Below, piece by piece: positions 3,118-35,897 of a DNA stretch of 48,619 nucleotides; the stretch's first letter is position 1; the number at the start of each line of letters is the position of its first letter. The stretch comes from a virus, in IMG/VR virus record IMGVR_UViG_3300020419_000022, positions 1 to 48,619 of that record; one strand, 5' to 3'. The notes under the pieces were generated by a model, which ran no database searches, had not been told where the DNA came from, and saw only the letters and a list, made by a program, of their open reading frames with translations. Position numbers and translations under genes: made by a program.

Positions 3118-3129
3118 CCTAGCCTATTG

Positions 3130-3897
3130 ATGCAATTATATTTTTGTATAAATTTACAACGTGCAGGTAATACTTTACTCGGCAGTATTCTAAATCAAAA
3201 TCCCGATATAACTTTTACAGCTAATAGTCCTCTTACTGAAATTATTTACCAACTCGACTTAATAAAAACCAATAACACAATTACCCAACAGCAAAATTTT
3301 CCTCATAATGAGTCTTTAAATAATGTTATTAGAAAAACTTTTTATACTTATTCTGAAACATTTAAAACAAAATATGTTATTAATAGGTGTAATTGGGGGT
3401 CAGATGGCAACCTTGAATTATTAGAAAAGTATTTTGATAAAAAAATTAAATTTTTAATTCTGTACAGAAATCCTTTAGAGTGTTTAGCTTCGTTATGTAA
3501 AGCATATAAAATTAAAAAAGAAGATAGTGAATTAGCAGCAGACCATTACATGAATGTAGAAACAGGTACTTTAGGAAATGCTGCTAATCAAATTCCTTTT
3601 GTACGAAAAAATTACGAACATTTATTTATCACTTATAATCAAATACTAGACAATCCTAAAAATGTTGTTAATAACATTTATAATTTTTTCAATATACCGA
3701 AATTTCAGCATACGTATAAAAACCTAAAACAGTTCGAAATACAAAACATACAATATGATGATTCTATTTTTGGTGACGTAGATTTACACACAATAAGAAC
3801 AGATGAAATAAAAAAGAAACCATATCCAATAGAAGATTTTTTACTTCCTTCTGTTATAGAAAAGTATAAGAATATAGGAAAAGAGTATGAATCTTAA
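3130..3897 (+). CDS. Sulfotransferase-family protein
   Basis: A 255-residue protein from ATG 3130 (TTG at 3127 is possible, and no clear ribosome site supports either). Residues 8-26 (NLQRAGNTLLGSILNQNPD) match the 5'-phosphosulfate-binding loop of P-loop sulfotransferases, here with LQRAGNT where LPRSGNT is usual. The 3'-phosphate motif is FLILYRNPLECLASL near residue 112. These enzymes move sulfate from PAPS to hydroxyl or amino groups of sugars, proteins or small molecules. The gene lies between the fibre genes and four oxygenases and overlaps the next gene by 11 bases, so they are likely co-translated. The acceptor is unknown: fibre protein, host surface sugar or metabolite are all possible. 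Confidence 0.75.
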   Translation: MQLYFCINLQRAGNTLLGSILNQNPDITFTANSPLTEIIYQLDLIKTNNTITQQQNFPHNESLNNVIRKTFYTYSETFKTKYVINRCNWGSDGNLELLEKYFDKKIKFLILYRNPLECLASLCKAYKIKKEDSELAADHYMNVETGTLGNAANQIPFVRKNYEHLFITYNQILDNPKNVVNNIYNFFNIPKFQHTYKNLKQFEIQNIQYDDSIFGDVDLHTIRTDEIKKKPYPIEDFLLPSVIEKYKNIGKEYES

Positions 3898-4507
3898 ATG
3901 GTATTATTGGTATTTTAAATCCGCTATACCAGAAAAAATATGTGACGATATAGTACGTTATGGTAAAAAACAAGATAAAGAGATAGCTACCACAGGAAAC
4001 AGTAGTAAAAAAGAACTTACAGAAGTACAACTAAAAAACATTCAAAAGAAAAGAAAGTCAGATGTTGTATGGATGAGTGATAGGTGGATATATAACGAAA
4101 TACAACCTTACATACATCGTGCAAATAAAAGTGCAGAGTGGAATTTTCAATGGGACTGGTCAGAATCTTGTCAATTTACCGAGTATAAAAAAGGACAGTT
4201 TTATGATTGGCATTGTGATTCATACGAAGAACCTTATAACGAACCTGAAAACTTAAATAGACACGGCAAGTTACGAAAACTTAGTATGACTGTATCACTT
4301 ACTAACCCCGAAGAATACGAGGGCGGAGATTTAGAGTTTGATTTCAGGAACACAGACGAAGGCTCACAACCAAGAATATGTGAAGAAGTTAGAGAAAAAG
4401 GTAGTGTAATTGTTTTTCCTTCTTTTGTTTGGCATAGAGTAAAACCCGTAACAAAAGGCATACGACACTCTTTAGTGTGTTGGAATTTAGGACACCCTTT
4501 TAAATGA
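3887..4507 (+). CDS. 2OG-Fe(II) oxygenase 1 (prolyl-4-hydroxylase-like)
   Basis: A 206-residue protein. The iron triad is visible as H109-x-D111 (in YDWHCDSY) and H183 (in FPSFVWHRV), with R193 in place to bind 2-oxoglutarate (GIRHSLVCW). A YEGGDLEF strand-turn between them is typical of P4H/PKHD-type hydroxylases. The family uses 2-oxoglutarate and O2 to hydroxylate protein side chains or small molecules. It overlaps the sulfotransferase by 11 bases and the next oxygenase by 4 (ATGA). All catalytic residues are present, so it should be active. The substrate is unknown. Confidence 0.85.
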   Translation: MNLKWYYWYFKSAIPEKICDDIVRYGKKQDKEIATTGNSSKKELTEVQLKNIQKKRKSDVVWMSDRWIYNEIQPYIHRANKSAEWNFQWDWSESCQFTEYKKGQFYDWHCDSYEEPYNEPENLNRHGKLRKLSMTVSLTNPEEYEGGDLEFDFRNTDEGSQPRICEEVREKGSVIVFPSFVWHRVKPVTKGIRHSLVCWNLGHPFK

Positions 4508-5049
4508 TTACTGAATTAAAAAACCCTTTAACAGAAGAATATAAAAATTTAAAAGAATTAGTATTAAGTCCTTATCTTCATTGGTTTTATCTTGACAAAA
4601 CAACAGACTCTAAAAATAAAGATTTAAGTTTTTTTAGTCATCATCTTTTAAGTAGGCAAGTGCATGAAATAGAAGGTAAAAAAGTTCCTGCAATACCAGT
4701 AAGCACTTCACCTTATTTTGAAAAATGTTATTTTATACTTAAAGAAATACTAGATTACAATAATATAGGTTTTGAAGTTATGTATAGGATGAACATAAAC
4801 TTAACATTACATAGTAAGATTAAAGAAAGCGTACCTCACATAGATTTAAACTTACCACATAAAGTTGTTATAGTTTATTTAACTGAATTTACAAAAGGTA
4901 GGACAATAGTTTTAGAAGAAGATAAACAAAAGTTTTATTCAAATCCAAAAGAAGATAATGTAATTATGTTTGATGGTGCACTTACACATTATCAAGAATG
5001 TCCTGATATAGATGAAAAAAGAATAGTAATGATTGCAAATTTTCAATGA
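4504..5049 (+). CDS. 2OG-Fe(II) oxygenase 2
   Basis: A 181-residue protein with H112-x-D114 (VPHIDLNLP), H162 (GALTHYQECP) and R173 (EKRIVMIANF), the full Fe(II)/2-oxoglutarate set. It is clearly different in sequence from the flanking oxygenases, so this is not a recent tandem duplication. Similar small proteins occur in cyanophages. It overlaps both neighbours by 4 bases, indicating translational coupling in one operon. Substrate unknown. Possible roles are fibre-protein hydroxylation or action on a host metabolite. Confidence 0.75.
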   Translation: MITELKNPLTEEYKNLKELVLSPYLHWFYLDKTTDSKNKDLSFFSHHLLSRQVHEIEGKKVPAIPVSTSPYFEKCYFILKEILDYNNIGFEVMYRMNINLTLHSKIKESVPHIDLNLPHKVVIVYLTEFTKGRTIVLEEDKQKFYSNPKEDNVIMFDGALTHYQECPDIDEKRIVMIANFQ

Positions 5050-5642
5050 GTTTTAAAAAAGATAAATACCAAGTAATTAAAGGTGCTGTATCAAAAGAAC
5101 TAGCAGATTTTTGTTATCAATATTTTTTAAACAAAAGAGCAGTTGCAAGATATTTGTTTGATGAAAGATATATATCACAGTTTACTGAATACTTTGGAGT
5201 TTGGAATGACCCACAAATACCCGAAACTTATTCGCATTACGCTGATATAGTTATGGAAACTTTATTACAAAAAGTAAAACCAATTATGGAAAAAGAATCA
5301 AGAGTAAAACTTATTGAAACATATTCATATGCTAGAATTTATAAAAATGGCGATGAGTTAGAAAAACATAAAGATAGGTACGCTTGTGAAATATCAACAA
5401 CTATGCACTTAGGTGGAGATAAATGGTCAATATATTTAGAACCAGATATTGAAATAAATTTAAATCAAGGGGATATGCTAATGTATCGTGGTTGTGATTT
5501 AGAACATTGGAGAAAACCTTTTGAAGGTAAAAATTGTGGACAAGTATTTTTACATTACAACGATGCAAGTAGCAAAGATGCTAAACAAAATAAATACGAC
5601 ACTAGACCTATGGTTGGGTTACCAGCTTACTTTAAACAATGA
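5046..5642 (+). CDS. 2OG-Fe(II) oxygenase 3
   Basis: A 198-residue protein. H108-x-D110 (LEKHKDRYACE) and H154 (CDLEHWRKP) form the iron site. The usual C-terminal Arg that binds 2-oxoglutarate is not obvious: the strand reads GKNCGQVFLHYND, with K162 the nearest basic residue. This form (HW..PF.G...QVFLHY) is one I recall from other marine phages, so it may be a normal variant of the subfamily. Coupled to both neighbours by 4-base overlaps. Substrate unknown. Confidence 0.75.
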   Translation: MSFKKDKYQVIKGAVSKELADFCYQYFLNKRAVARYLFDERYISQFTEYFGVWNDPQIPETYSHYADIVMETLLQKVKPIMEKESRVKLIETYSYARIYKNGDELEKHKDRYACEISTTMHLGGDKWSIYLEPDIEINLNQGDMLMYRGCDLEHWRKPFEGKNCGQVFLHYNDASSKDAKQNKYDTRPMVGLPAYFKQ

Positions 5643-6181
5643 ACTTTATAGAAGAGTATCAAATAAGTAACAAAGCTGTTGATGAACTAATAAAGCATTG
5701 GAACAGTAATAAAGCTAACGCAGAAGAAGGTACAGTAGGTAATAATAGGATAGATAAAAAATTTAAAAAATCATTAGAAGTAATGATAACTCCAGAAGAT
5801 TTAACAAACTTTTTATATAGAGATGAATTATTAAAATGCCTAAAACAATATGTTTCAAAATATAAATTTGCAGATGATGTAGAGTTTTATGGTATTAACC
5901 ATAATACCAAAATACAGTATTACGACAAAGGATGGGGTTTTTATAAATGGCACGCAGAAAATGATGGTGGTCCTCATGTTATACAAAGACATTTAGTTTT
6001 TAGCACATATTTAAATAATGTTGAAAATGGAGGAACAGAATTTTTATATCAAGATTGTGTTACTAAAGCTAAAAAAGGTTCAACAATTATTTTTCCTGCA
6101 GGTTGGACACACGCTCATAGAGGACAAATATCTAAAAACCAAGAAAAATATATTATTACAGGGTGGTTTAATTTTTTATAA
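5639..6181 (+). CDS. 2OG-Fe(II) oxygenase 4 with H-x-E iron motif
   Basis: A 180-residue protein. YYDKGWGFYKWHAENDGGP carries H105-x-E107 in place of the common H-x-D. The distal His is H158 or H160 in GWTHAHRG, and K170 (EKYIITGWF) occupies the 2-oxoglutarate-binding position. STYLNNVENGGTEFLYQ is the usual P4H-type core strand. The H-x-E form with a C-terminal Lys marks a distinct subfamily. It is the last gene of the sulfotransferase-oxygenase run; the next gene starts about 100 bases later behind a possible new promoter. Confidence 0.8.
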   Translation: MNFIEEYQISNKAVDELIKHWNSNKANAEEGTVGNNRIDKKFKKSLEVMITPEDLTNFLYRDELLKCLKQYVSKYKFADDVEFYGINHNTKIQYYDKGWGFYKWHAENDGGPHVIQRHLVFSTYLNNVENGGTEFLYQDCVTKAKKGSTIIFPAGWTHAHRGQISKNQEKYIITGWFNFL

Positions 6182-8515: not shown

Positions 8516-8841
8516 TGGCTAAGCTGTTAGAAACGAAACTTCCTGTAGCTATAGGACCTATTGACCCTGCACTATTTAATCGGTTAGTTAGAATATTAGA
8601 ACTTAGTTTAAATAAAGTAAACGTAGGTTCTACTATAAATGTTAATGAGTCTGAAAGAAACATAAACCAATTTAATACAGGGGATGTTATTTGGAATTTA
8701 ACTACGGAACAACTTCAGTTATGGACAGGAAAACAATGGTCAGATATTTATTTAGGAACAGAAAAGGGAGTTCAGGGAACAATGTCTCTTGGACAAATAA
8801 GTGTGTCAACTGGTGGCAACACGACAATAAAAATATTATAA
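8515..8841 (+). CDS. Small virion-associated protein, unknown
   Basis: 108 residues, starting at the TAATG that ends the large structural gene. It has an N-terminal helix (IDPALFNRLVRILELSLNKV) and a C-terminal strand-rich part (DVIWNLTTEQLQLWTGKQWS). No catalytic motif. Small proteins of this shape between a large structural gene and the lysozyme are common in marine podoviruses. Function unknown. Confidence 0.55.
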   Translation: MAKLLETKLPVAIGPIDPALFNRLVRILELSLNKVNVGSTINVNESERNINQFNTGDVIWNLTTEQLQLWTGKQWSDIYLGTEKGVQGTMSLGQISVSTGGNTTIKIL

Positions 8842-8852
8842 AAGGGGATATT

Positions 8853-9293
8853 ATGGATATGAAAAAACTACAAGAAGAATTAACTTTCGACGAAGGGTGT
8901 GTAGATAAAATATATTTAGACCACCTAGGATATCCTACTTTTGGTATAGGTCATTTAATATTAGAAACAGACCCTGAACACGGACAAGACGTAGATACTC
9001 CTGTTTCTAAAGAAAGAATTGATGAATGTTTTGGAAACGATATACAAAACGTTATAAACGATTTAGACAGAAACATGGAATGGTGGAAAGATTTACCAGA
9101 AGATTTACAAAGAGTTATGGCTAATATGTGTTTTAATTTAGGTATTACACGTTTGTTAAAGTTTAAAAATTTCTTAGCTGCTATGGAAAATAATGATTGG
9201 GATAAAGCCGCAGTTGAAATGTTAGACAGTCGTTGGGCTATACAAGTAGGTCCACGAGCTATAAGATTAAAAGATAGAGTAATAGGAGCATAA
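8853..9293 (+). CDS. Endolysin, T4-type lysozyme (GH24)
   Basis: 146 residues from ATG 8853, preceded by AAAGGGGATA; a longer in-frame reading back to 8691 overlaps the previous gene and lacks a ribosome site. The catalytic set E14, D23 and T29 sits in FDEGCVDKIYLDHLGYPTFG, with the same spacing as E11, D20 and T26 of T4 lysozyme, followed by GIGHL. It cleaves the peptidoglycan sugar backbone at lysis. No signal peptide is seen, so a holin is needed. Several small membrane proteins nearby (6279, 6434, 10351) are candidates. Confidence 0.92.
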   Translation: MDMKKLQEELTFDEGCVDKIYLDHLGYPTFGIGHLILETDPEHGQDVDTPVSKERIDECFGNDIQNVINDLDRNMEWWKDLPEDLQRVMANMCFNLGITRLLKFKNFLAAMENNDWDKAAVEMLDSRWAIQVGPRAIRLKDRVIGA

Positions 9294-9450: not shown

Positions 9451-9648
9451 ATGCCCGCAAAAAAGAAAACACATAAAACTAAAGACGGCAGAACTGCTAA
9501 AAAAGGTCTTTATTACAATATAAATAAAAAACGTAAAGAAGGCAGAAAAATGCGTAAGAAGGGAGCTAAAGGTGCACCGACAGCAGCTGCTTTTAAACGT
9601 TCTGCTAAAACAGCTAAAAAGCCTAAAAAGAAAAGTAAGAAAAAATAA
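9451..9648 (+). CDS. Small highly basic protein 2
   Basis: 65 residues with ribosome site TAGGAGAATAAA. Roughly half of all residues are Lys or Arg (for example KKRKEGRKMRKKGAKG and a C-terminal KKPKKKSKKK). No globular core is apparent. It could bind DNA or RNA like a histone-like condensing peptide, or act as a virion-packaged protein. Overlaps the next gene by one base. Confidence 0.65.
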   Translation: MPAKKKTHKTKDGRTAKKGLYYNINKKRKEGRKMRKKGAKGAPTAAAFKRSAKTAKKPKKKSKKK

Positions 9649-9944
9649 TGGCTACAAAACGTAAAGAAAAGTCTATAAGACGTACTACAGGTAAAGGCGG
9701 TAATTACCGTAAAACTAAATCAGGTGCGGGCATGACTAAGAAAGGCGTTAAAGCATATAGAAGAAAAAATCCTGGTAGCAAATTAAAAACAGCTGTTACA
9801 GGTAAAGTTAAAAAAGGAAGTAAAGCAGCAAAAAGAAGAAAGTCTTATTGTGCTAGAAGTGCGGGACAGATGAAGAAGTTTCCTAAAGCCGCTAAAAATC
9901 CTAATTCAAGATTACGTCAAGCACGTAAAAGGTGGAAATGTTAA
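9648..9944 (+). CDS. Small basic protein 3 (DUF6321-like)
   Basis: 98 residues. The central part GMTKKGVKAYRRKNPGSKLK then TAVTGKV..GS.AAKRRKSYCARSAGQM matches a conserved phage domain that I recall as DUF6321, with C-terminal ...RLRQARKRWKC. About 40 percent of residues are Lys or Arg. Two invariant-looking Cys lie in SYCARSAGQ and at the C-terminal residue. Function unknown; nucleic-acid binding is likely from charge. The following nuclease gene starts on its stop codon. Confidence 0.65.
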   Translation: MATKRKEKSIRRTTGKGGNYRKTKSGAGMTKKGVKAYRRKNPGSKLKTAVTGKVKKGSKAAKRRKSYCARSAGQMKKFPKAAKNPNSRLRQARKRWKC

Positions 9945-10894: not shown

Positions 10895-11377
10895 ATGACG
10901 CCTGAGCAAGAAAAAGATAGACTATTATGGATAATAATGGCTATAGGAGCAATGTTAATTATCGGTGTTTTTGTAGAAAACGTTAGAGCAGACCAAATAG
11001 TTCATAAATTTAAATCACCTAGTTTTAACGGTATTGGCACATCATCTCACTATTTAACAATAGAAAATCAAGAGTTTAGTCGTAAGCTAACTATTAAAGA
11101 AGAAATCAAAGCCTTGCAAGATGAAATAGAACGAGAAAAAGAAAACAGTACATTGGCTAGATTCATGAGGAACTTAGAATCACGTGTCTACGCTGAACTG
11201 TCTAGACAATTAGTTAACAACCTCTTTGGAGAAACACCCTCTGATTCAGGTACAATAGAACTAGAGGGAAACATCATTGAGTATACAAGCGATGGTGTAA
11301 CATTAACATTAAAAATTACTGAGGCAGATGGAACCGTCACTGAGATTACAATTCCTATTGGTACTTTTACTTTCTAG
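10895..11377 (+). CDS. csgF: CsgF-like curli assembly protein
   Basis: 160 residues with a strong ribosome site. An N-terminal hydrophobic segment (residues 10-27) and VRA before D33 suggest a signal peptide cut at about residue 32. The mature start DQIVHKFKSPSFNG then SHYLTIENQ corresponds to the CsgF opening (FxFxxPxFGG...LLNSAQAQN), the part known to bind inside the CsgG pore. The C-terminal half (SRQLVNNLFGE, then GNIIEYTSDGVTLTLKITEA and TVTEITIPIGTF) matches the CsgF tail of strands. In bacteria CsgF sits at the outer membrane and couples CsgG secretion to surface nucleation. Its last 50 bases overlap csgG. Confidence 0.8.
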   Translation: MTPEQEKDRLLWIIMAIGAMLIIGVFVENVRADQIVHKFKSPSFNGIGTSSHYLTIENQEFSRKLTIKEEIKALQDEIEREKENSTLARFMRNLESRVYAELSRQLVNNLFGETPSDSGTIELEGNIIEYTSDGVTLTLKITEADGTVTEITIPIGTFTF

Positions 11378-12164
11378 TTGTTCTACATTAGACCAAATTG
11401 AAGACACGTATGAATATAGGTTCGGCAAAGAAAGTATTGTAAATATCCAAGATTTACAGTCTGTTGCTTTACGTGATGTTTCTATTCCTAAAGTTAGTCC
11501 TGTAGTAGCTGTGTATCCTTCAGCTTTTACTGACCAAACAGGTCAGCGTAAAAGTAATAGCGAGTTTGCTTTATTTAGTACAGCTATAACACAACAACCA
11601 AACGCATTACTTATACGAGCTTTAAAACACGCAGGTAATGGTGATTTCTTTAGGGTAGTAGAAAGAGTTGGTCTTGATAATTTAACTAAGGAAAGACAGC
11701 TTATACGTTCAGCAAGAGAACAGTTTGCTAGTGATGAAGAAAAGAAAAAACAATTAGCACCGTTATTGTTTGCAGGTGTTCTGTTAGAAGGTGCTGTTAT
11801 TAGTTATGAAGCTAATCTAGAATCGGGAGGTATCGGTGCTAGGTATTTAGGCATTGGCAACAGCGTACAGTATAGGGAAGATAATATAACAGTTAGCCTT
11901 AGAATGGTTTCTGTAGCTACGGGAGAAGTTCTGTTAGAAGTATTAAGTCAGAAAACTATATTTAGTTATGGTAAATCTAATGATGTATTTAGGTTTATAG
12001 AAATGAATACTGAACTTGTAGAAATAGAAGCAGGCAATGCAAGAAACGAGTCTTCTACTATTGCTTTAATGAAAGCTATCGAAGGCGGAGTATTAGAAAT
12101 AATTAAGTTAGGTTACAAAAAAGGTTACTGGGTTTTACAAACAAAAGAAAAGAAGGTAGAATGA
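11328..12164 (+). CDS. csgG: CsgG-like curli secretion pore (outer-membrane lipoprotein)
   Basis: 278 residues. The start ATG 11328 lies inside the csgF-like gene and has GAGG in front. It gives a type II signal peptide with lipobox LSSC and Cys18 as the lipidated residue. The core is strongly CsgG-like: VAVYPSAFTDQTGQRK, FSTAITQQPNALLIRALKHA, FFRVVERVGLDNLTKERQLI, then LEGAVISYEANLESGGIGA, RYLGIGNSVQYREDNITVSL and GEVLLEVLSQKTIFSYG. In bacteria CsgG forms a nonameric outer-membrane channel that exports curlin subunits. Length equals the family norm (about 277). All key regions are intact, so it should be functional. Confidence 0.93.
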   Translation: MEPSLRLQFLLVLLLSSCSTLDQIEDTYEYRFGKESIVNIQDLQSVALRDVSIPKVSPVVAVYPSAFTDQTGQRKSNSEFALFSTAITQQPNALLIRALKHAGNGDFFRVVERVGLDNLTKERQLIRSAREQFASDEEKKKQLAPLLFAGVLLEGAVISYEANLESGGIGARYLGIGNSVQYREDNITVSLRMVSVATGEVLLEVLSQKTIFSYGKSNDVFRFIEMNTELVEIEAGNARNESSTIALMKAIEGGVLEIIKLGYKKGYWVLQTKEKKVE

Positions 12165-12168
12165 AGGT

Positions 12169-12900
12169 ATGATGATGAACAGGTGCATACAATTATTGTT
12201 ATGTTTTGTTTTATTGCCGTTATATGCTGCGGACAATGAAATATATGTAGACCAGTCTGGTACTGGTGCTAATATAGATTTAGAACAGCTAGGTATATCT
12301 AATATTATTGGTGGATTAAATTCTACAGCAGGTAGTGTAAATGCTTTCGATTTAGACGGTACTACTATGACCTTGGACATTAATATGATTGGTGCAACTA
12401 ATAAGTTTCTTGGTGATATTTTTGCAGATAACTTTACAGGTTTGTACAACTTCACCGGAGGCACTAATACATTCACTATTCAAGTAGACCCAACAGATTC
12501 TTATAGTTCAGACGGCTCTAATCAAAACGTAGCAGTTACTGGTAGCAGTAATACATTTACTTTAAACCAAGGTACAACTGCAATAGCCGCGTCTCTTGAT
12601 TTAGATTGGATTATTCAAGGCTCTAATAATACAATTACTTCTAATATCAATATTGATGGTGCAACAAACTACATGGATATAGACGGCAGTGATAATACAG
12701 TAAACTATACAGGTACGGGTGTTAATGCTTCAGCAGGTGGTTATTTTTACTTAGACCACACAGGCGGTTCAAGAACATTCAATATACAACAACTGAGTAC
12801 CCAAGATAATGACTGGCTTAAAATTATATCGAATGGCGGCACTGCTGCTTCTACTGTTTGTGTCATTCAAAACGACCAAGGTACAAGCACAAGCTGCTGA
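12169..12900 (+). CDS. Secreted curlin-like / beta-solenoid repeat protein
   Basis: 243 residues. ATG codons stand at 12169, 12172 and 12175. The signal peptide ends PLYA near residue 20-21. Just after it, YVDQSGTGANIDLEQLGISN has the Q-x-G-x-x-N spacing of curlin repeats. The rest has repeated G-(S/G/A)-x-N-(T/Y)-(F/I/M/V) units (GGTNTFTIQVD, GSSNTFTLNQG, GSNNTITSNINIDG, GSDNTVNYTG), fitting a beta-solenoid. It ends with two Cys (STVCVIQNDQGTSTSC). By position after csgG it is the likely exported subunit. It is not a standard CsgA; the assignment rests on repeats, signal peptide and context. Confidence 0.65.
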   Translation: MMMNRCIQLLLCFVLLPLYAADNEIYVDQSGTGANIDLEQLGISNIIGGLNSTAGSVNAFDLDGTTMTLDINMIGATNKFLGDIFADNFTGLYNFTGGTNTFTIQVDPTDSYSSDGSNQNVAVTGSSNTFTLNQGTTAIAASLDLDWIIQGSNNTITSNINIDGATNYMDIDGSDNTVNYTGTGVNASAGGYFYLDHTGGSRTFNIQQLSTQDNDWLKIISNGGTAASTVCVIQNDQGTSTSC

Positions 12901-13930
12901 TATTGGGGACATATCTGAATTAAACGGTTCAGCACAAATAGTCAGAGATAAACCATACGACGCTAACTTAAAGTTTGCTATTCAAAGTAATGACGAAGCT
13001 ATAACTACTGACGGTAGAATGGCTATTACTTTTTTAGATGCATCTGTAGTAAAATTAACTGAACACTCACAACTTCTTATAGATGAATATATTTATGACC
13101 CTGACCCAAGCAAATCTAAAATGGCTCTTACCTTTGGTCTTGGGACAGCACGGTTTATTACTGGTAATTTAAACCGTATAGATAAACAAAACATAGAACT
13201 TAGAACTCCTACAGCCAATATCGCCATTCGTGGAACTGACTTCACAGCGACGGTAGACGAGCTAGGACGTTCACTTATTATTCTTTTGCCTGACGCTTTA
13301 GGTCTTTCTAGTGGTGAAATAGAAGTAGTTACTGCTATGGGAACAGTAGTGCTTAATAAACCTTACGAAGCAACTACGGTAAGTGTATTCGAGTCAGCCC
13401 CTTCTAAACCAGTTATCTTAGATTTAACATTAGATATTATTGATAATATGTTAATCGTTACACCTCCTAAACAAGAACAGACAGTTGAAGAAGAAAGAAC
13501 AACAGCACAAACAGATAGCGTATTAGATTTTAATGATTTAGATATTGATTATCTTGCCGAAGATTTTTTACAGGAAGAAGACTTAGAATTTACAGAACTC
13601 GATATAAATTTCTTAGATGTGAATTATCTTGAAGACTTACTAAATGTGTTAGATGCGTTAGCTGTCGCTGAAGACGAAGACCAATTAGCACAAGCTACAA
13701 GTACGCAAATATCTGGAACTCTTTTAGGTAAAGACCCTGAGACTCAAATAACAACTTTAATAACAGGAAACGTTGTTAGTTTACGAAGACAAGTAAACGA
13801 AAGCGTTAGAGTAGATTTAAACGGTAGTGATGCGTATACTGTAATTTTGATACAAGACGGAGTATCTAATATAATCAAGGTGAACGGAGGAAGCGATAGT
13901 GTTATTACCATTACGCAAAACGATGGATGA
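12809..13930 (+). CDS. Secreted FecR-domain protein with curlin-like C-terminus
   Basis: 373 residues. It starts inside the preceding gene (92-base overlap in another frame), where the overlap encodes a signal peptide (residues 1-29, cut near AQA/A). Residues 31-200 form a FecR domain: GRMAITFLDASVVKLTEHSQ, then FGLGTARFITG and IELRTPTANIAIRGTDFTA. An acidic, low-complexity linker follows (about residues 230-300: DFNDLDIDYLAEDF and similar). The last 30 residues (LIQDGVSNIIKVNGGSDSVI and TITQNDG) have the Q-x-G-x-x-N pattern of curlin repeats. It may be exported with the curlin-like protein or act as nucleator or sensor partner of the cyclase that follows (4-base overlap). Confidence 0.75.
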   Translation: MTGLKLYRMAALLLLLFVSFKTTKVQAQAADIGDISELNGSAQIVRDKPYDANLKFAIQSNDEAITTDGRMAITFLDASVVKLTEHSQLLIDEYIYDPDPSKSKMALTFGLGTARFITGNLNRIDKQNIELRTPTANIAIRGTDFTATVDELGRSLIILLPDALGLSSGEIEVVTAMGTVVLNKPYEATTVSVFESAPSKPVILDLTLDIIDNMLIVTPPKQEQTVEEERTTAQTDSVLDFNDLDIDYLAEDFLQEEDLEFTELDINFLDVNYLEDLLNVLDALAVAEDEDQLAQATSTQISGTLLGKDPETQITTLITGNVVSLRRQVNESVRVDLNGSDAYTVILIQDGVSNIIKVNGGSDSVITITQNDG

Positions 13931-15663
13931 AAAAACTTTTTATAGTACCTATATTGTTAATACTTTCATTACCTTTAGTGTTTCAATCAACACCTACAGA
14001 AATATTAAAACTTAAAGTATTCGATAATTTCATAGAGAAACAACAGCCTTCAGGTAATTTTGTTATTTTAAATATAACGGAAGAAGACGTTGAACGTGAA
14101 GGTGGCTATCCTTTGCCGAGAAAAAGGTTAGCTGATATACAACTAGAAATATTAGGCAAAGGAGCCCTTGGCGTTGGTTGGGTTATTTCTTTTCCACAAC
14201 CAGACAGACTTATGGGAGACGAAGATTTTGCTAGGTCTTTAGGTTATGCTCCTAGTGTAATAGCCACATTTGAGGACGGTAATAAAAACTATCCTAAAAC
14301 AACAGGCACCGTTATTAAAGGTCCCGATGTCGGTGGTTTATCTTCTACGGGAGTTAAACAAAATTTTAATCTTTACGATGATATAGCACAAGGAGTTGCT
14401 ATAGCCCCAGTTGAAGTAGACCAACTCGTTAGGCGTATTCCTCTCTTATTAAAGACGCCTGACGGGTGGGCTCCTTCTTTCGGAGTTCATGTTTTAAAAA
14501 ACTTAACAGGTGCTCGTACTTATATTATTACTACTAATGATAACGGCGTACAAGAAATAGCGGTTAGGGGTATACCGCCGGTAAAAACAGATAGTTTTGG
14601 TCGTAAGTGGGTCAGTTGGGTAGAAACAGAAGAAACTGATTTACAAGAAATGGATGTAAATGGTAGGTTTGTTTTTGTAGGTGTTACTGCTAATGGTGTG
14701 ATGCCGCAAATTGCAACTCCTGTTGGTTTACTTGAACCTCATAAAATACAAGCAGCATTAGCAGAATCAATACTCATACAAAATAGTCCGTATATTCCTG
14801 ATTACGCTTTAGCTTTAGAACTGCTTATCTTTATAGCGTCTGTAGGGCTCGTATGGGCGTTTATAAGCTACTTAGGTATAACGTGGGGCGTAAGCCTAGC
14901 TTTACTTACGATGGCTTTAACGGGCTTCTACGGTTACTACACTATAACTACGGGTGTTTTAATAGATATTACGTGGTCTTTAGTTTCTCAGTTTATCGCA
15001 GGAGCTATAGCTTTCTATTTAAGATTTAGAGAACAATACAAATTAAGACAACAAATTAAAAAACAATTTGAACATTATCTTGACCCAAGACAAGTTAAAC
15101 GTTTACAAAAAGACCCTAGCTTATTAAAACTAGGGGGAGAAAAAAGACGTTGTACTTTTTTGTTTACAGACGTTAGAGGGTTTACAGCTTTATCGGAAAC
15201 ACTATCTCCTGAAGAAGTAACAACAATAATGAACAAAGCATTAACTATACAATCAGATGCAGTACAAAAATATGGAGGAATGGTAGATAAGTATATTGGA
15301 GATGCAATGATGGCTATCTTTAATGCACCTATGGATTTATTACATCACGAAAAGATAGCTGTAGACTGTGCTAAAGAAATACAAGAAAATATAATAAAAG
15401 CCGATATTGGTATTGAAATCGGAGTAGGGGTAAATACGGGTGAAGCTGTTATAGGCAATATGGGCAGTGACACTAGATTTGATTATTCAGCTATAGGAGA
15501 CGCTGTAAATACCGCCGCTAGACTAGAATCCGCAACTAAAGAAGCGGGTGTAAACATACTTATTGGGGAAGAAACAGAACTATATTGTGGTTATCGATTA
15601 AAACAATTAAAACCAATAAAAGTAAAAGGTAAAGAAAAACCTTTAAAAATATACACTTTTTGA
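13927..15663 (+). CDS. CHASE2-domain membrane adenylate/guanylate cyclase (class III)
   Basis: 578 residues. TM1 is residues 3-19, then a periplasmic CHASE2 sensor (about 20-290: FVILNITEEDVEREGGYPLP, RLADIQLEILGKGALGVGW), three membrane spans (about 293-365), and a cytosolic class III cyclase domain (about 400-578). Metal ligands are D415 (FTDVRGFT) and D459 (YIGDAMMAIF). K455 and S521 occupy the purine-selecting positions, and N528 and R532 (AVNTAARLE) stabilise the transition state. The Ser at 521 replaces the Thr of bacterial class IIIb adenylate cyclases, so cAMP is the likely product. All catalytic residues are present. It is coupled to the FecR gene by ATGA overlap. An intact receptor cyclase on a phage is very unusual. 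Confidence 0.92.
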   Translation: MKKLFIVPILLILSLPLVFQSTPTEILKLKVFDNFIEKQQPSGNFVILNITEEDVEREGGYPLPRKRLADIQLEILGKGALGVGWVISFPQPDRLMGDEDFARSLGYAPSVIATFEDGNKNYPKTTGTVIKGPDVGGLSSTGVKQNFNLYDDIAQGVAIAPVEVDQLVRRIPLLLKTPDGWAPSFGVHVLKNLTGARTYIITTNDNGVQEIAVRGIPPVKTDSFGRKWVSWVETEETDLQEMDVNGRFVFVGVTANGVMPQIATPVGLLEPHKIQAALAESILIQNSPYIPDYALALELLIFIASVGLVWAFISYLGITWGVSLALLTMALTGFYGYYTITTGVLIDITWSLVSQFIAGAIAFYLRFREQYKLRQQIKKQFEHYLDPRQVKRLQKDPSLLKLGGEKRRCTFLFTDVRGFTALSETLSPEEVTTIMNKALTIQSDAVQKYGGMVDKYIGDAMMAIFNAPMDLLHHEKIAVDCAKEIQENIIKADIGIEIGVGVNTGEAVIGNMGSDTRFDYSAIGDAVNTAARLESATKEAGVNILIGEETELYCGYRLKQLKPIKVKGKEKPLKIYTF

Positions 15664-24000: not shown

Positions 24001-24448
24001 CAGCATGGTTCAAAGAGAAGCTGGTGTTACACCTTCAGAAGGTATTCAAAAAGTTATTACAGGAGGAGAATATATTGTAGGTAATAATATTGAAGGTGCT
24101 AGAATGTTACAAAGATTATTAATACCACCGTTAACACAAACAGGTAGAAGAATAACAGCTATTTCTTCTAGGCAAGCAGAAAACTCTCGTAAATTTATTG
24201 GTCGTATGTTATTAGACCCTGAGTTGTTTCAAAGAACTATGCAGTTTGCACAAGGCAGAGAAAGCACTCAAAAATTTATAAGTTTCTTAACGTCATACAG
24301 TATGGTTGCTGCTAATGACATAGGGAATGAATTAAAATATTACGATACAGAAGATAAAAAACAAAAAACTCCAGAGGACTCTGACAGGTTACAAAACTTA
24401 GTACCTCCGGTTCCTGAAAGAATTACACAAATAGGTGGTGGATTATAA
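21071..24448 (+). CDS. Very large internal virion / DNA ejection protein candidate
   Basis: 1125 residues, the largest protein here. It is largely helical. A hydrophobic stretch at about residues 240-340 (VGLTLYGASKFTTPAGLAGG, then IGAAGGDYVRLLIGSAMGAH, VIGAWAFGGTAAITLSS) could insert into a membrane. The C-terminal half carries long charged helices. I see no lytic transglycosylase or other enzyme signature. By size and place it is comparable to the largest internal virion protein of podoviruses. It overlaps the next gene by one base. Confidence 0.6.
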   Translation: MEVTQEQENEFYALRTKAANSLANKTLKDNPNVTYGQLLSPKELEFAAHVFSPDIKSRASLIYTPEEIAQIESAVNWEQRVSPYNRAPVDFDMYERFPEYMKQVDFFNSPEAQERRNMGKVRGNYPDDYQPLEPVAPFGIEKSKEINSLGFDSSPDNQLQFDNAGDAFKFNNMVAFGPRKMTKEQYQRLGEQFGLKGDYIYINPSKPSLGVAFKAEGEEDFKIINSPEITLDDTMRIITQEFPAIAGDVGLTLYGASKFTTPAGLAGGVIGKFGKVLGLSGASAIGAAGGDYVRLLIGSAMGAHDLTAEEMLKEAGVIGAWAFGGTAAITLSSRAITKAYKAISGKDVPPGMLEQIDDALQASRQTDAAGPGLLYGDDVSVQQIRNQINKLADNYGAEFGKGYNPTIASQAGTQSAADLETVFLKYADDPDLRELYNQIKGGNQEVIDEFVRTLNEKIGPSISGVDDATGATVSEGLRVLAQKDIDLFNEQAFEMINQVRRQVGGADDAAAAGDAILRQVDNPQASSGPIFERTQTRLNEIKKGYLEPFNEGWTTALNNPRYANLKTGAGYTRAPAQKWLNARKGESNNLFRSSQGDEAVKELYSLLPAGTKETINRLRGIGKKGFESPNFTLNELNSARVALNDFASNLPDGKQGIARLARDLERGLEDQMNVLVREGASAESGIPMTQKVTLNKWIDENKYGDDLRQAWSSQKEALQLSNNQAIRSILQQERPEKIAEYMFNTVAKGSKRNKPMTDFMAVLEREGSDEILQIQEGLAAYIQREVLDAPDLSALQIAKQYRKFVKENEGTLRAVFGDKNFASRFYNPKGFDKVIKGIEKTNEDILRIEARFGMAQAGEPDKKITNIVESILATGKTQKQSGRILEDIEYLASITKNNPELAEQVAQVTKRYLLSDIITPRQGGGFEINGASLDKLLKEGFGPEEVVGPRLTFDSFMKPLLGKKAGKEFIENLKILNSMVQREAGVTPSEGIQKVITGGEYIVGNNIEGARMLQRLLIPPLTQTGRRITAISSRQAENSRKFIGRMLLDPELFQRTMQFAQGRESTQKFISFLTSYSMVAANDIGNELKYYDTEDKKQKTPEDSDRLQNLVPPVPERITQIGGGL

Positions 24449-25794
24449 TGGCTAGAAGAAGGTTTGAACGAGAAGATTTTATGACACAAGGAATAATGAA
24501 TCCTTTTGCACAAGAACTAGAATCTATTAGGCTAAGAAAAGATGCAAATGATTCTATAAACAACGCTACTGACCAATATGAAGCAGATGTTGCTGATTTT
24601 AAAAGCACACAAGCTAATGAATTTGAACAAGGATTAGCTAGTTTGTTAGAACAAGAGCCTATATTTACCCCTCCTCCAATTTTTAGAGATGAGCCGCCTA
24701 TATTTACACCTCCTGGAAATCCTTACCAAGATATATTTAGACCTCCATTTGAACCACCAATAGATAGACCTCCATTTAGACCTCCATTTGAACCACCGTA
24801 TGTACCACCAATAGATGGACCGCCTGATGTTCCACCGTTTGAGCCACCAATAGATAGACCTCCCTATGTACCACCAATAGACGAACCTCCATTTAGACCT
24901 CCCTATGTACCACCAATAGACGAACCTCCATTTAGACCTCCGTTTGACCCACCAATAGATGGACCGCCTGATGTACCCCCGTTTGACCCGCCACCGCCAC
25001 CGCCACCTCCACCACCTAGTGGACCTATAAATCCGTATACAGGTAAGCCGGTTAATAATCCGTACACACCATACTCAACGGATAGTGGGGCGGCACCATT
25101 AACTAGGGCAATAACTCCCAGAGATTTTGGTCAAGCTCCTGGATTTGAACGTCCTATAGGAGGTCCTCCAATTATTTTACCGCCCGCTCCACCACGACCA
25201 CCAATCGAACCTCCGATTATGTGTTTTGTAGCAGGAACAAAAGTTGATATGGCTGATGGAACTAAAAAAGTTATCGAAAATATTGCAATGGGAGACGAAG
25301 TATTAGCTCTAAATGGTGAAAAAGATGTAGTTTCTTATGTACATGATATTCCAAAAGCTGACAGAAGTTTATGGACTATAAACGATAGAATAACAGCTAC
25401 AGATGCTCATGCGTTTTTAACTGAAGACGGATGGAAATCTAATAATGCTGAACTATCTAATACAGTTTATAACGAGTATGGAATAAATATTAAAGACTTA
25501 CAGCTAGGTGATAAATTAATAACTAACGATGGAGTAGAAGAAGTTACAAAGCTTGAAAACGAAAAAGATTTTGTAAAAGTTTATAACTTCACCACGTCTA
25601 ACACACATACATATATGGTAGACGGTGTTGTTTCTCATAATAAACAACCTCCCGGACGACCACCAATACTTTTTTCTAAAAAAGAGCCAGACGGTATGAA
25701 AAACGGTGGAGGTATTTCTATGTTGCCGATGAACGGACAAGGTGATACAATGACAACACAGATGTTTCAAAGAGCATTTAGACCAAGGAGATAA
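24448..25794 (+). CDS. Proline-rich virion protein with an intein-like (Hint/BIL) domain
   Basis: 448 residues. Residues 1-70 are helical. Residues about 70-195 are a proline-rich repeat (PPFRPPFEPPIDRPPYVPP-type units and a run of ten prolines). C259 opens a Hint domain (MCFVAGTKVDMADGTKKVIE), with the block B-like segment TATDAHAFLTEDGWK near residue 320 and the C-terminal VDGVVSHN ending H397-N398. It is about 140 residues long with no endonuclease insert. The residue after N398 is Lys, not Cys, Ser or Thr, so full protein splicing is not expected; this fits the bacterial intein-like (BIL) class, which can cleave its own chain. About 50 residues follow. Confidence 0.8.
   Translation: MARRRFEREDFMTQGIMNPFAQELESIRLRKDANDSINNATDQYEADVADFKSTQANEFEQGLASLLEQEPIFTPPPIFRDEPPIFTPPGNPYQDIFRPPFEPPIDRPPFRPPFEPPYVPPIDGPPDVPPFEPPIDRPPYVPPIDEPPFRPPYVPPIDEPPFRPPFDPPIDGPPDVPPFDPPPPPPPPPPSGPINPYTGKPVNNPYTPYSTDSGAAPLTRAITPRDFGQAPGFERPIGGPPIILPPAPPRPPIEPPIMCFVAGTKVDMADGTKKVIENIAMGDEVLALNGEKDVVSYVHDIPKADRSLWTINDRITATDAHAFLTEDGWKSNNAELSNTVYNEYGINIKDLQLGDKLITNDGVEEVTKLENEKDFVKVYNFTTSNTHTYMVDGVVSHNKQPPGRPPILFSKKEPDGMKNGGGISMLPMNGQGDTMTTQMFQRAFRPRR
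24859..24936 (+). repeat. 39-base perfect tandem duplication in the proline-rich gene
   Basis: Copies at 24859-24897 and 24898-24936 are identical and in frame, each encoding PPYVPPIDEPPFR. They lie inside a wider run of imperfect PP-containing units (about 24655-25020). Perfect identity suggests recent slippage or expansion. Confidence 0.85.
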
Positions 25795-25796
25795 TT

Positions 25797-26492
25797 ATGG
25801 ACCCGAATGAAAAATTAACAGGAATAACACAAATGGCACCTCCTTCTATGATGGCGGGCGGAATGGGTGGTGGACAACCCCCTATGCCTCCTATGAATAA
25901 CCCGCAACCTCCTACACCTCCTATGCCTGAACCAGGAATGGGTGAAATGGCTATGCAGGGTCAAGAACCTCCTATGGAAGAACCAGGAATGAATTTAGAA
26001 CAAGATTCAGCTATGTTAGCAGAAGCTGTAGTAGGCAGAGCACAAGGAGATATAGGGGCTGCTATTGCTGTGTTAGATAACGCTAAAGCTATGTTAATCT
26101 CTGCTGCTGAAGGCGGTGGTCAAGAACCTCAGATGATGATGCATGGTGGTGAAGTTCATTATGAAATGGACGGAGGACCTTTGTATCGTGAAGGTGGGGG
26201 TGAATTAAATCCAGGATTGAGAGCATTAGCTAAAAAAGAACCAAAACTTGTTGAAAAAATTACAGGTAAACCTTTACCCCAAAATATGTATGCGGGTGGA
26301 CCTCTGTATCGTGAAGGCGGTGGTGGTATGTCTGATAACGATGTAATGAGACAAATGATTATGGAAAATTTACAAAAACCTGCTATTCAAGAACAAGTTA
26401 TGGCAGAAGCTATGAATCAATTACAACCACAGGTTTCAGCTCCTAGTAAAACGGATGCTATGTCAGACCTTATGTCTTACAGAATGTCTTAA
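25797..26492 (+). CDS. Pro/Met/Gly-rich virion-region protein
   Basis: 231 residues. Residues 15-70 are P-, M- and G-rich (MMAGGMGGGQPPMPPMNNPQ). A helical segment follows (EAVVGRAQGDIGAAIAVLDN), and the motif GGPLYREGGG occurs twice (about residues 127 and 168). The end (MIMENLQKPAIQEQVMAEAM) is helical. It is the last gene of the rightward late block and its stop overlaps the end of the leftward helicase by 4 bases. Likely structural by context, with no clear family. Confidence 0.55.
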   Translation: MDPNEKLTGITQMAPPSMMAGGMGGGQPPMPPMNNPQPPTPPMPEPGMGEMAMQGQEPPMEEPGMNLEQDSAMLAEAVVGRAQGDIGAAIAVLDNAKAMLISAAEGGGQEPQMMMHGGEVHYEMDGGPLYREGGGELNPGLRALAKKEPKLVEKITGKPLPQNMYAGGPLYREGGGGMSDNDVMRQMIMENLQKPAIQEQVMAEAMNQLQPQVSAPSKTDAMSDLMSYRMS

Positions 26493-27931
26493 CCTATCCA
26501 GTCTTTCCACTTTTCATCCCCTAGCACTTCTTGTGCTAGGTCAAGTTTATTTCGTAGTGCTTTTACAATTTTTTCATCAACGGTGCCTTTAGCGACTAAA
26601 TCAATATAGGTTACTTTGTTAGTTTGCCCTATACGGTGAGCCCTATCTTCTGACTGTAAACGTTTTTCAAGGTCATAATTATTACTGTAATAAATAACAG
26701 TGTTAGCTTCTGTAAGAGTTATACCGTAACCACCGGTTTGGGTATTACTAATTAAATATTGTAGGTCTGAGTTTGGGTCTTGAAATCTTCTAATTATTTC
26801 TTGACGTTCTTCGTCAGGTGTTTCTCCGTAGTACGTAGCTACACTATCTACTCCTGCTATATCATGAAGTTTCTTTAATATTCTTTTTATATCGTATTGG
26901 TAGTTAGCCCATATAATAGTTTTGCCTTGTACTTCTTGTAAAACATCTACAAGTTCATCTAATCGATTACTTTTAACTTCTACTTCTTCACCGTTGTCGT
27001 TTCTAACAAAACCACAAACTACTTGGTGTAGTCTAAGTATTTGTGTTAATACAGAAGTTACGCTAACTATCTCATGTGAGTCTAGTTCAGCTATAGCATA
27101 ATCAGTAAGTTGTTTATAAACTTTCTTTTGTTCTGGTGTTAGTTCTACTTCTCTACGTTGATATACTTTATCAGGAAGGTCTAAACACTCTTTCTTAAGC
27201 ACCCTATAAGAGAACTCATTTACATTTGATGTAAGTTCTTCTAGGTTTTGATATCCGACTACTTGTCTGAAAGACCTAGCCCCCATTTTACGATTAATTA
27301 ATTTAGCGTATCTGTTTTGAAAAGAATAAAAAGATGTATAACCTAATAACTGCGGTGATAGAAATGTGCTTTGACTATACAAGTCTAACGGTGATTGGGT
27401 AACAGGAAAGCCTGTAAGTATTCTTCTATATTTAGTATTGATAGCTAACTTTAACAAGTTTTTAGTTCTTTGTGCTTTAGGGTTTTTAATAGTTGTCGAT
27501 TCATCAACGGCTATTAATGCATTATGTGCTAAGATAAACTTTTCTACAAACGCTACGCCTTTTTTGGTACTAAAAGCTTCTACGTTTATTACTAATATTT
27601 TTAAATCATGACTAACTTCAAACAACTTAGTTAGTTCTCTTTTTTGTTTTAATGTAGGTGCTGGATTCCATACTCCTATATGCTTTTCTATATGGTCTGG
27701 CATATGAGCAGGTATTTCTTTTTCTGACCAGTTTCTGTATACACCTTTGGGAGCCACGATTATAGCACCGTTGATACCGCCTTTATCATAAAGTATAGAA
27801 ATGTTATCTATAAGGACTTTAGATTTACCAGTACCCATTTCCATAAAATAAGCATACTCACGCTTGTTCCATGATTTATTTAACGCCAAAAGCTGATGCT
27901 CATATGGCTTTGTTTTAAACTTATACTTCAT
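26489..27931 (-). CDS. SNF2-type DEAD/DEAH helicase
   Basis: 480 residues, the only convincing leftward gene. Residues 31-37 (EMGTGKS) form Walker A. Motif II is AVDESTTIKNP (DEST), motif III ILTGFPVTQSP, then TIIWANYQYDIKRI, LISNTQTGGYGITLTEANTV (motif V) and EDRAHRIGQTNKV (motif VI), the RxHRIGQ of the SNF2 family. The family moves on double-stranded DNA using ATP. Phage copies are thought to act in replication or transcription control. It converges on the late operon and diverges from the early one, with its own regulatory region at 27932-28130. Confidence 0.92.
   Translation of the reverse strand: MKYKFKTKPYEHQLLALNKSWNKREYAYFMEMGTGKSKVLIDNISILYDKGGINGAIIVAPKGVYRNWSEKEIPAHMPDHIEKHIGVWNPAPTLKQKRELTKLFEVSHDLKILVINVEAFSTKKGVAFVEKFILAHNALIAVDESTTIKNPKAQRTKNLLKLAINTKYRRILTGFPVTQSPLDLYSQSTFLSPQLLGYTSFYSFQNRYAKLINRKMGARSFRQVVGYQNLEELTSNVNEFSYRVLKKECLDLPDKVYQRREVELTPEQKKVYKQLTDYAIAELDSHEIVSVTSVLTQILRLHQVVCGFVRNDNGEEVEVKSNRLDELVDVLQEVQGKTIIWANYQYDIKRILKKLHDIAGVDSVATYYGETPDEERQEIIRRFQDPNSDLQYLISNTQTGGYGITLTEANTVIYYSNNYDLEKRLQSEDRAHRIGQTNKVTYIDLVAKGTVDEKIVKALRNKLDLAQEVLGDEKWKDWIG
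26520..26545 (+). terminator. Putative terminator of late transcripts inside the helicase gene
   Basis: CCTAGCAC (26520-26527) and GTGCTAGG (26533-26540) make a perfect 8-base-pair stem with a TTCTT loop, 28 bases after the stop of the last late gene, followed by TCAAGTTTATTT. The tract is only moderately T-rich. The hairpin is encoded within the C-terminus of the convergent helicase, so it could reduce read-through from the late side. Confidence 0.4.
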
Positions 27932-34104: not shown

Positions 34105-34962
34105 ATGTCATCAATAAGAAAGAAACTACTCGTTAATGAAAACGATAGTAAAAATACGAGAATGGATATTGCTAGTGCGGGCGTACTGGCTAACTGGCGA
34201 CCTGATGAGATAGCTCATATGAGTCGTTTCGATAATATAGCTTCTATGTGTATAGAAGAAGCTAAACGACTAGGCAGACCCCTAGATACTTTTGAAGTAG
34301 GTTGTGGTGAGTGTTGGACTCTTAGAAATCTATATAAAGCATATGTTATTAAAAAGTCTGACGTGATTAAATCATACTACGGCTACGATATTGACCCTAT
34401 GTGCGAGTTAGAGAATCCTTTTTGGTCTAACGCAGGTAATCCGTTAAAAGACTCTACATGGTTTCAAAACTTTAACGGAGAGATAAGGATACAAGATTTG
34501 ACAGTAGACCCTGTATTTAAACTAGAGGATGAAAGTATTGACTTCTTTTGGACTACCGAAGTTATTGAACATATGGGTAGAGAGTTTATTGCTGCATGGC
34601 TAGACGATGCGGCTAGAGTTATGCGACCAAATGCATTAGCTTTTGTCTCTACGCCTAACCACGACGGTTCTAACGACAAGCTTCCTGAAGACCACGTATA
34701 TGAGTGGGGTTTCCAAGAACTAAAAGAAGAATTAGAAAGGAACTTCGAAATAGTTGACGTCACAGGCACGTTTATACAGCTACCTAATTTAAAGAAAGCT
34801 ATGAAAAAAGACGCCGAAGGCGAACACGAATGGAACGGTTGGACTCCGAAACAATTTAATAAACTACAAAACAGATATGGTAGACAATTTTTAAGAGTTG
34901 TTGCGGCAACATTCTATCCTGAAGTTGCGAATAACTGTTCTTGGGTGTTAAGGAAGAAGTAA
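34105..34962 (+). CDS. Class I SAM-dependent methyltransferase
   Basis: 285 residues. Motif I is TFEVGCGECW (63-71), with YYGYDIDP (motif II, acidic D95/D97). The segment DFFWTTEVIEHMGREFIAAW then LDDAARVMRPNALAFVSTPN matches the post-motif region of small-molecule and base/nucleotide methyltransferases. No DNA-methylase NPPY or PCQ motif is seen, so it is not a classical adenine or C5 methylase. Substrate unknown. Its stop overlaps the next start (TAATG), next to a thymidine-hypermodification-type gene, so action on a modified base or precursor is possible. Confidence 0.8.
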   Translation: MSSIRKKLLVNENDSKNTRMDIASAGVLANWRPDEIAHMSRFDNIASMCIEEAKRLGRPLDTFEVGCGECWTLRNLYKAYVIKKSDVIKSYYGYDIDPMCELENPFWSNAGNPLKDSTWFQNFNGEIRIQDLTVDPVFKLEDESIDFFWTTEVIEHMGREFIAAWLDDAARVMRPNALAFVSTPNHDGSNDKLPEDHVYEWGFQELKEELERNFEIVDVTGTFIQLPNLKKAMKKDAEGEHEWNGWTPKQFNKLQNRYGRQFLRVVAATFYPEVANNCSWVLRKK

Positions 34963-35897
34963 TGACTGAGTTTCTTGCAGAAGAACTAGACCGTTTTTGC
35001 TATTGGCAAACTGAACGCGAAAGTATTAGGGTCAAAAAAGAGGAGTATAACCTTCCTGCCCCATGGACAGATGACCCTATTCTGCGAGAGTTTAAATTCT
35101 GTCAAGTTTTCCGAGAAGACGATAGAACGACTAGGTGGTTTAGAACACATATAAGAGACCCTCTAGCCAATAGTTCTGATGTTATTATGGCTACGATTAT
35201 TTTCCGTTGGTTTAATTTTATACCCACAGGTAGAACGTTAGTAGAGAATGATTTACATAGGAACTGGGAGGGTGATAAAGCTATACAGCTTATAAAAGAA
35301 CAGCCTAAGTGGGTGACAGGCTCTTATATTATTAAAACGCCGAACGGTATGGATAAAGTAACAGGGGTAGTTGACTGTATTAATAATATCTGGAAGGATA
35401 AAGATTGGATAACTAAACGTTTAGAGTACGATAAAAAAGAAGGAACAAGTTCTTTAAAGTCTGCATGGACATTACTTAGGCAATATCCTTATATGGGTCC
35501 ATTTATGGCGTACGAGGTTGTTACTGATTTAAGGCATACCTATGTGTTAGATGAAGCCGAAGATATTATGACGTGGGCTAATGCAGGTCCAGGAGCTATG
35601 AGAGGACTAAATAGATTAACAGGCAGACCGCTTGATTTTTCGCATCGTAGCCACGACTGGAACACAGAAATGCAAGAATTATATCAAATAGTTATACGCA
35701 GATTACCTGCACATATTGCAATGCGTAATGATAGAGTGTATGAACTACGTGATATCGAAGGAGGGCTTTGTGAGTTTGATAAGTATTCAAGGATATTTAA
35801 AAAAGAAGGACGAACAAGGTCTATATATAAAACTAATAATCTTCCTGAAATAGAAGATTTGATAGATGGAGAAAGTAAGTATGGGAAAAGTGAATGA
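34962..35897 (+). CDS. Thymidine-hypermodification family protein (aGPT-PPlase / HMUDK helical domain)
   Basis: 311 residues from ATG 34962, which overlaps the preceding stop; ribosome site AAGGAAG. Diagnostic segments are RDPLANSSDVIMATIIFRWF (66-84), MGPFMAYEVVTDLRHTYVLD (178-197), TWANAGPGAMRGLNRLTGR (204-222) and DIEGGLCEFDKYSR (264-277). These fit the helical family described for alpha-glutamyl/putrescinyl-thymidine pyrophosphorylases and the helical part of 5-hydroxymethyl-dU DNA kinases. Known members act on 5-hydroxymethyl-dU in phage DNA on the way to bulky thymidine derivatives. No kinase P-loop is present in this protein. The exact step is uncertain. Confidence 0.82.
   Translation: MTEFLAEELDRFCYWQTERESIRVKKEEYNLPAPWTDDPILREFKFCQVFREDDRTTRWFRTHIRDPLANSSDVIMATIIFRWFNFIPTGRTLVENDLHRNWEGDKAIQLIKEQPKWVTGSYIIKTPNGMDKVTGVVDCINNIWKDKDWITKRLEYDKKEGTSSLKSAWTLLRQYPYMGPFMAYEVVTDLRHTYVLDEAEDIMTWANAGPGAMRGLNRLTGRPLDFSHRSHDWNTEMQELYQIVIRRLPAHIAMRNDRVYELRDIEGGLCEFDKYSRIFKKEGRTRSIYKTNNLPEIEDLIDGESKYGKSE

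Follow-up and report, generated by a model that had tools for sequence, protein, structure and literature searches.

The 48,619-nucleotide stretch analyzed here (the window), a 48.6-kb viral contig held in IMG/VR as record IMGVR_UViG_3300020419_000022, carries five intact, co-directional open reading frames (ORFs) at positions 10895-15663 that encode, in this order, a CsgF homologue, the export pore CsgG, a curlin-like protein, a FecR-domain protein and a CHASE2 receptor cyclase. The cassette belongs to a kind already known from pelagiphages, that of type VIII secretion (T8SS, curli), and we read it, with moderate confidence, as a surface-export module in which CsgG and CsgF export the curlin-like protein while the FecR protein reports export or anchoring to the CHASE2 cyclase. 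A preliminary description made from the sequence alone had proposed these five gene identities, their order and their organization as an operon, all of which were upheld by the intact adjacent ORFs, by Pfam matches and by synteny in homologous loci. The same description had supposed that the set would be a new kind of phage system, and in this it was mistaken: CsgF/CsgG operons were reported from pelagimyophages in 2020 (PMC7029224), a curli operon, with a proposal that it forms a lysis pore, from the methylophage Melnitz in 2022 (PMC9004378), and the full set including FecR and adenylate cyclase, also in 2022, from myophages and from nine HTVC023P-type podophages, the same phage type as that of the window (PMC9599517). 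What is new here is the gene order across approximately 200 loci, the re-identification of the gene upstream of csgF, the pairing of FecR with CHASE2 proteins in bacteria, the C-terminal tail shared by two cassette products, and a presumed host family almost without machinery for cyclic AMP (cAMP).

The composition of the cassette proved to be very stable. Starting from CsgG, a scan of IMG/VR found 501 relatives, 80 of which were fetched, and the order CsgF-CsgG-curlin-FecR-cyclase was found wherever the contig had room for it. When the cyclase and FecR served as seeds, another 144 locus records were obtained, with some contigs recurring between the scans; 98 of the records hold the full set of five genes and 46 are cut by contig ends. 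No gene was really missing from any of them and the order was identical in 144 of 144. Rather than being scattered and unrelated in relatives, the outcome that the preliminary description had named as speaking against it, the genes thus lie in strictly syntenic loci. The order is kept in some 200 viral loci, and the only real gene loss was that of the cyclase in a locus from a genome collection (L084:911-4798), a podovirus-like contig binned as Maricaulis in which a holin-like gene and a lysozyme come immediately after the cassette. The genes are under strong purifying selection, with dN/dS values of 0.07-0.17 across all six of them (the sixth lies upstream of csgF and is discussed below) and 0.09 for FecR. 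The csgF and csgG genes overlap by exactly 50 nt in 80 of 81 loci, and an out-of-frame overlap of 92 nt between the curlin and FecR genes was seen in 66 loci; these conserved overlaps and the dN/dS values rule out chance ORFs. No conserved RNA elements were found, and promoter and terminator scans performed no better than shuffles.

Since the cassette lies downstream of gp629/lysozyme in one group of podoviruses and upstream of gp629 in another, and recurs in the myophages HTVC008M and Melnitz, it behaves as a horizontally spread unit. Among 50,697 phage records, relatives of the CsgG, FecR and full-length CHASE2 cyclase of the window occurred only in HTVC008M and Melnitz strains, the other matches being shorter cyclase-domain ones and one CsgG in a 1.5-kb Salmonella phage record. 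The operons of those myophages (PMC7029224, PMC9004378) have homologous CsgF, CsgG, curlin-like, FecR and cyclase genes in the same order, but their proteins are only about 30-50% identical to those of the window and a second curlin-like gene stands between FecR and the cyclase. The cassette of HTVC023P-type pelagipodophages and pelagimyophages (PMC9599517) shares phage type, gene order and small upstream gene(s) with the window, which has one curlin-like gene rather than two. A bacterial origin of the five-gene set was rejected: seven loci from the genome collection all hold cassette genes, and the two that were read gene by gene (L084 and L087) look like phage contigs binned into metagenome-assembled genomes (MAGs).

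The evidence that links the FecR protein to export comes from its C-terminus. A signal peptide is followed immediately by the FecR domain (residues 66-151), an acidic linker and a curlin-type ending (QDGVSN...ITITQND). The terminal motif hydrophobic-x-hydrophobic-x-Gln (h-x-h-x-Q) was present in 74 of 75 curlin-like proteins and in 68 of 68 FecR proteins, as compared with 9 of 381 other viral ORFs, 0 of 80 CsgF, 2 of 83 CsgG and 0 of 59 cyclase proteins. It was likewise present in 137 of 138 FecR copies from the later cyclase- and FecR-seeded scans and in myophage FecR proteins of 33-36% identity. Chromosomal bacterial curlins share this ending, and bacterial FecR proteins do not (0/12 and 0/11 in two partly overlapping sets). 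The shared motif suggests that the phage FecR protein may accompany the curlin-like protein in export or bind to it, and a tail that would lead FecR to the fibre is the idea we take from it. The FecR-domain fold itself was supported by weak but high-probability matches to FecR/PupR-type anti-sigma domains; a further match, to a "cell surface anchoring domain" (5ix9; TM-score 0.69 over 61 residues), is a lead only. The cytoplasmic anti-sigma part of FecR is not present, and neither a sigma factor (FecI) nor a TonB receptor (FecA) is encoded among the cassette genes. A role at the side of the CHASE2 cyclase is the better reading of the protein, in preference to one in iron regulation.

Such a partnership is supported by 289 genomes from the same class as the Rhodobacteraceae MAG G001 (presumably Alphaproteobacteria): out of 110 cases, CHASE2-cyclase and FecR relatives lay side by side in 27, against an expectation of ~0.5 that assumes 4-Mb genomes and the listed FecR matches only. 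Most of the 12 bacterial loci that we read (L182-L193) also hold a TPR/Slam-type barrel protein, and L189 has an OEP protein of the TolC type. Some of the FecR partners are large surface proteins that carry RTX, Calx-beta, VWA or TbpB-like domains. The grouping of FecR, CHASE2 and exporter is widespread, in many free-living bacteria: clusters of CHASE2 cyclase, FecR and TPR proteins are known from Campylobacterota (PMC9239204), and an operon of FecR and a CHASE2 kinase (BiofilmReg) is tied to biofilm in Burkholderia (PMC5192318). In these clusters, as in the cassette, a secreted FecR-domain protein adjoins a CHASE2 sensor, and the alphaproteobacterial pairs share the cyclase output of the phage pair. 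The differences are that the exporter is of the Slam/TPR-barrel or TolC type rather than CsgG/CsgF, and that the FecR proteins of bacteria are for the most part bigger and do not end in the curlin-type tail of the phage proteins. Neither FecR nor cyclase genes were found beside csg in the alphaproteobacterial chromosomal csg regions (effectively four, as csg genes were not seen in a fifth, L103). The most economical history has the phages themselves, or a donor outside the sampling, combining a curli exporter with a sensing pair that in bacteria is linked to export. The bacterial loci also bear on the suggestion (PMC9599517, PMC7029224) that an ungated CsgG pore imports nutrients or cofactors with FecR as an iron sensor. 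We consider this very improbable, despite the absence of the CsgE gate and the presence of ferrochelatase and 2OG-Fe oxygenase genes in the same phage, given that import requires neither curlin nor CsgF and that cyclase-paired FecR relatives lie with exporters and surface proteins, not with TonB receptors, in the loci read.

The preliminary description had stated that the cassette proteins contain their key residues, and for the cyclase this was so: FTD, KYIGD and YSAIGDAVNTAAR are present, as are the two metal Asp, Lys, Ser/Thr, Asn and Arg of the class III catalytic domain, a CHASE2 domain and transmembrane segments, and the catalytic motifs were retained in the intact viral copies that we read. 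The protein is by these motifs a CHASE2 class III adenylate cyclase, and cAMP synthesis is predicted. Unlike it, the Melnitz-type cyclases (L002:10544-12592 and L087:6672-8705) have VSTAAR for VNTAAR, with Ser at the position of the transition-state Asn, and may be weak or inactive. As for the cell in which the cyclase would act, the window phage is, judged by its proteins, an HTVC023P-type podovirus of the ocean: its DNA polymerase is 53% identical to that of 023Pt_psg01 and 50% to that of HTVC023P, its 629-aa structural protein also matches HTVC023P and HTVC027P, and it encodes ferrochelatase, 2OG-Fe oxygenases and thymidylate synthase, a combination reported for HTVC023P-type phages (PMC9599517). 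On account of this affiliation its host is probably SAR11. Among 99 genomes sharing the family of a Pelagibacter MAG, class III cyclases over threshold were identified in two, both with a phage-type CsgF on the same contig, class I cyclases in none and a cNMP-binding domain in four; 11 cassette-bearing phage records had no cNMP-binding domain. The presumed host family therefore appears, from these genomes, to lack adenylate cyclases of its own and nearly to lack cAMP-receptor domains of known type. Among the functions put forward in the preliminary description (fibres, a superinfection block, lysis, envelope sensing and the raising of cAMP), all of them candidates, cAMP as a signal meets a problem here, because the receptor domain is nearly absent from the presumed host family and was not found in the 11 records of cassette phages. 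More tentatively, and as a possibility to which we give limited credence, FecR could be a CsgG substrate or fibre-capping subunit by way of its curlin-type tail, closing an export-sensing loop. If that holds, the cAMP would have to act on an unknown or private target, since the host has no cyclases and, a few exceptions aside, no cAMP receptors of known type.

Directly before csgF, the window encodes a 116-aa protein that has a coiled coil and a single transmembrane segment, the latter near the N-terminus. Contig L087 and further podoviruses have a pair of proteins of the same kind (~92-97 and ~83-95 aa) in this slot, and a member of the family, or a pair, sits just 5' of csgF wherever the loci have room, in podo- and myophages alike. 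As such, the 116-aa protein is a probable sixth member of the cassette. The published cassette was described as preceded by a histidine kinase ("HK, sometimes two"; PMC9599517), and by position and number we infer that the 116-aa gene is this HK. A histidine kinase upstream of csgF was rejected, as neither the window protein nor any of its 14 homologues contains a kinase domain, and the published annotation probably needs revision. Weak matches of the family were to YvrJ and to a holin family in PHROGs, which brings into view the explanation put forward for Melnitz (PMC9004378), namely that CsgG, together with the holin-like upstream protein, permeabilizes or gates the envelope late in infection while the cyclase senses envelope state. 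In its favour are the small holin-like transmembrane genes directly 5' of csgF across lineages, the lysozyme near the cassette in the window, and the holin-like gene and lysozyme immediately after it in L084. However, lysis timing leaves the conserved curlin and FecR substrates (dN/dS of 0.09) and their shared tail unexplained, and most relatives of this phage type manage without the cassette, which was carried by nine of 80 new genomes (PMC9599517); we judge it unlikely.

The export part of the module is firmest for CsgG, whose family profile matched solved CsgG structures (4uv2 and others) with an E-value of ~7e-65 over ~220 aligned residues, and whose lipobox (LLSS-C) is directly legible in the sequence. 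CsgF searched alone against the PDB gave no match. For the curlin-like protein, Curlin_rpt was not matched directly by the window sequence but was matched by 6 of the 11 proteins in the curlin alignment (best 5e-8), which included the second curlin gene of the myophages, and a profile that likewise included these second curlins matched the curlin 8c50 at 7e-6. The window protein has 10 G-x-x-N turns, as compared with 3.1 in shuffles (P=0.0004), and AlphaFold2 modelled it as all-beta (pLDDT 82, pTM 0.79). A match to a solved structure is not claimed for it, since the profile of its own family misses 8c50. The cassette shares with the csg system of Escherichia coli the alignable CsgG and the CsgF family, but it has FecR and cyclase genes added and lacks CsgE, CsgC and CsgD, none of which was found among the cassette and neighbouring ORFs scanned. 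The published interpretation (PMC9599517, PMC7029224) is that of canonical curli, an amyloid for host aggregation ("sibling capture") or a coat that blocks superinfection, with FecR and cyclase forming an iron/cAMP circuit. We regard this as rather unlikely, although all essential T8SS parts other than CsgE are present and the genes are under purifying selection. FecR is fully secreted, has no cytoplasmic anti-sigma part and is not accompanied by FecI or FecA in the cassette; cAMP receptors are almost absent from the presumed host family; the amyloid nature of the curlin-like product is putative; and no clumping was observed in the Melnitz study (PMC9004378).

We therefore return to the surface-export module, which would operate as follows. 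During infection, CsgG and CsgF would form an outer-membrane pore through which the curlin-like protein would be exported as a surface fibre or adhesin. By way of its curlin-like tail, the FecR protein would either be exported or stay attached to the pore, its FecR domain lying on the periplasmic side, where the CHASE2 domain of the inner-membrane cyclase could read its export or anchoring state, leading to cAMP being made. The FecR-cyclase part would be the bacterial sensing pair that is common beside Slam- or TolC-type exporters, joined in phages to curli. An altered surface of the infected cell is, we infer, the likeliest benefit; it might block competing phages or hold neighbouring hosts, and the sensor would time a late step. 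Several points weigh against this account. Melnitz infection, as noted, showed no clumping. The FecR orthologues are related, so that 68 of 68 does not represent 68 independent events; the h-x-h-x-Q motif was defined after inspection of the tails, which makes it a strong lead and no test; and the C-terminal half of FecR was modelled at very low confidence. "Curlin-like" is the weakest of the five gene assignments and appears indirect for the window protein itself: a Foldseek search of the PDB with its model gave no significant match, and the match to a PDB curlin is lost when the profile is built from its close family alone. CsgE is absent, though it is not essential for curli (PMC7029224), and plain cAMP signalling fits poorly with a host that lacks a receptor for it.

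Table 1. Genes of the cassette and the nearby lysozyme gene, in window coordinates.
Feature	Position	Strand	Supporting matches and selection
Small single-transmembrane, coiled-coil protein (holin/YvrJ-like), 116 aa	10351..10701	+	PHROG holin 4898 (1e-5), phrog_18771
CsgF homologue, 160 aa, secreted	10895..11377	+	Pfam CsgF 4e-16; phrog_35372 1e-43; dN/dS 0.09
CsgG lipoprotein export pore, 278 aa, lipobox LLSS-C	11328..12164	+	Pfam CsgG 5e-46; dN/dS 0.09
Curlin-like secreted repeat protein, 243 aa, predicted all-beta, C-terminal VCVIQND	12169..12900	+	dN/dS 0.09
Secreted FecR-domain protein, 373 aa	12809..13930	+	Pfam FecR 7e-9
CHASE2 receptor adenylate cyclase, class III, 578 aa	13927..15663	+	Pfam CHASE2 4e-23, Guanylate_cyc 4e-21; dN/dS 0.17
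Phage lysozyme (endolysin), context only, outside cassette	8691..9293	+	Pfam Phage_lysozyme 6e-10

Elsewhere in the window, two small, very Lys/Arg-rich proteins are encoded at 9451-9944, between the lysozyme and a nuclease gene. Genes for a 2OG-Fe(II) oxygenase, endonuclease V, a ferrochelatase-family protein and a second oxygenase (PHROGs) occupy 3887-6181, with a sulfotransferase gene ahead of them at 3127-3897. A 448-aa protein in the phage structural region (24448-25794) has a Hint/intein-like domain at residues 258-396 (Pfam Hom_end_hint 7e-10, PT-HINT 1e-7). A 480-aa helicase gene (26489-27931) lies on the minus strand, the rest of the genome being plus-strand, and GC skew drops there too. 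A protein with a 5-hydroxymethyluridine (5-hmdU) DNA kinase helical domain (34941-35897; Pfam 4e-41) adjoins a thymidylate synthase homologue (36099-37142; PHROG 7e-112), and from these neighbours a thymine hypermodification of the phage DNA is likely.

Phage curli have been puzzling since 2020, and the explanations offered run from sibling capture to lysis timing. In the comparison made here, the "iron regulator plus histidine kinase" gives way to a FecR-CHASE2 pair linked to export, together with a small membrane protein. The C-terminal signal that FecR appears to have in common with the curlin-like substrate provides a testable lead, and the presumed host family, being essentially without known cAMP machinery, makes the output of the cyclase a question that can be checked.

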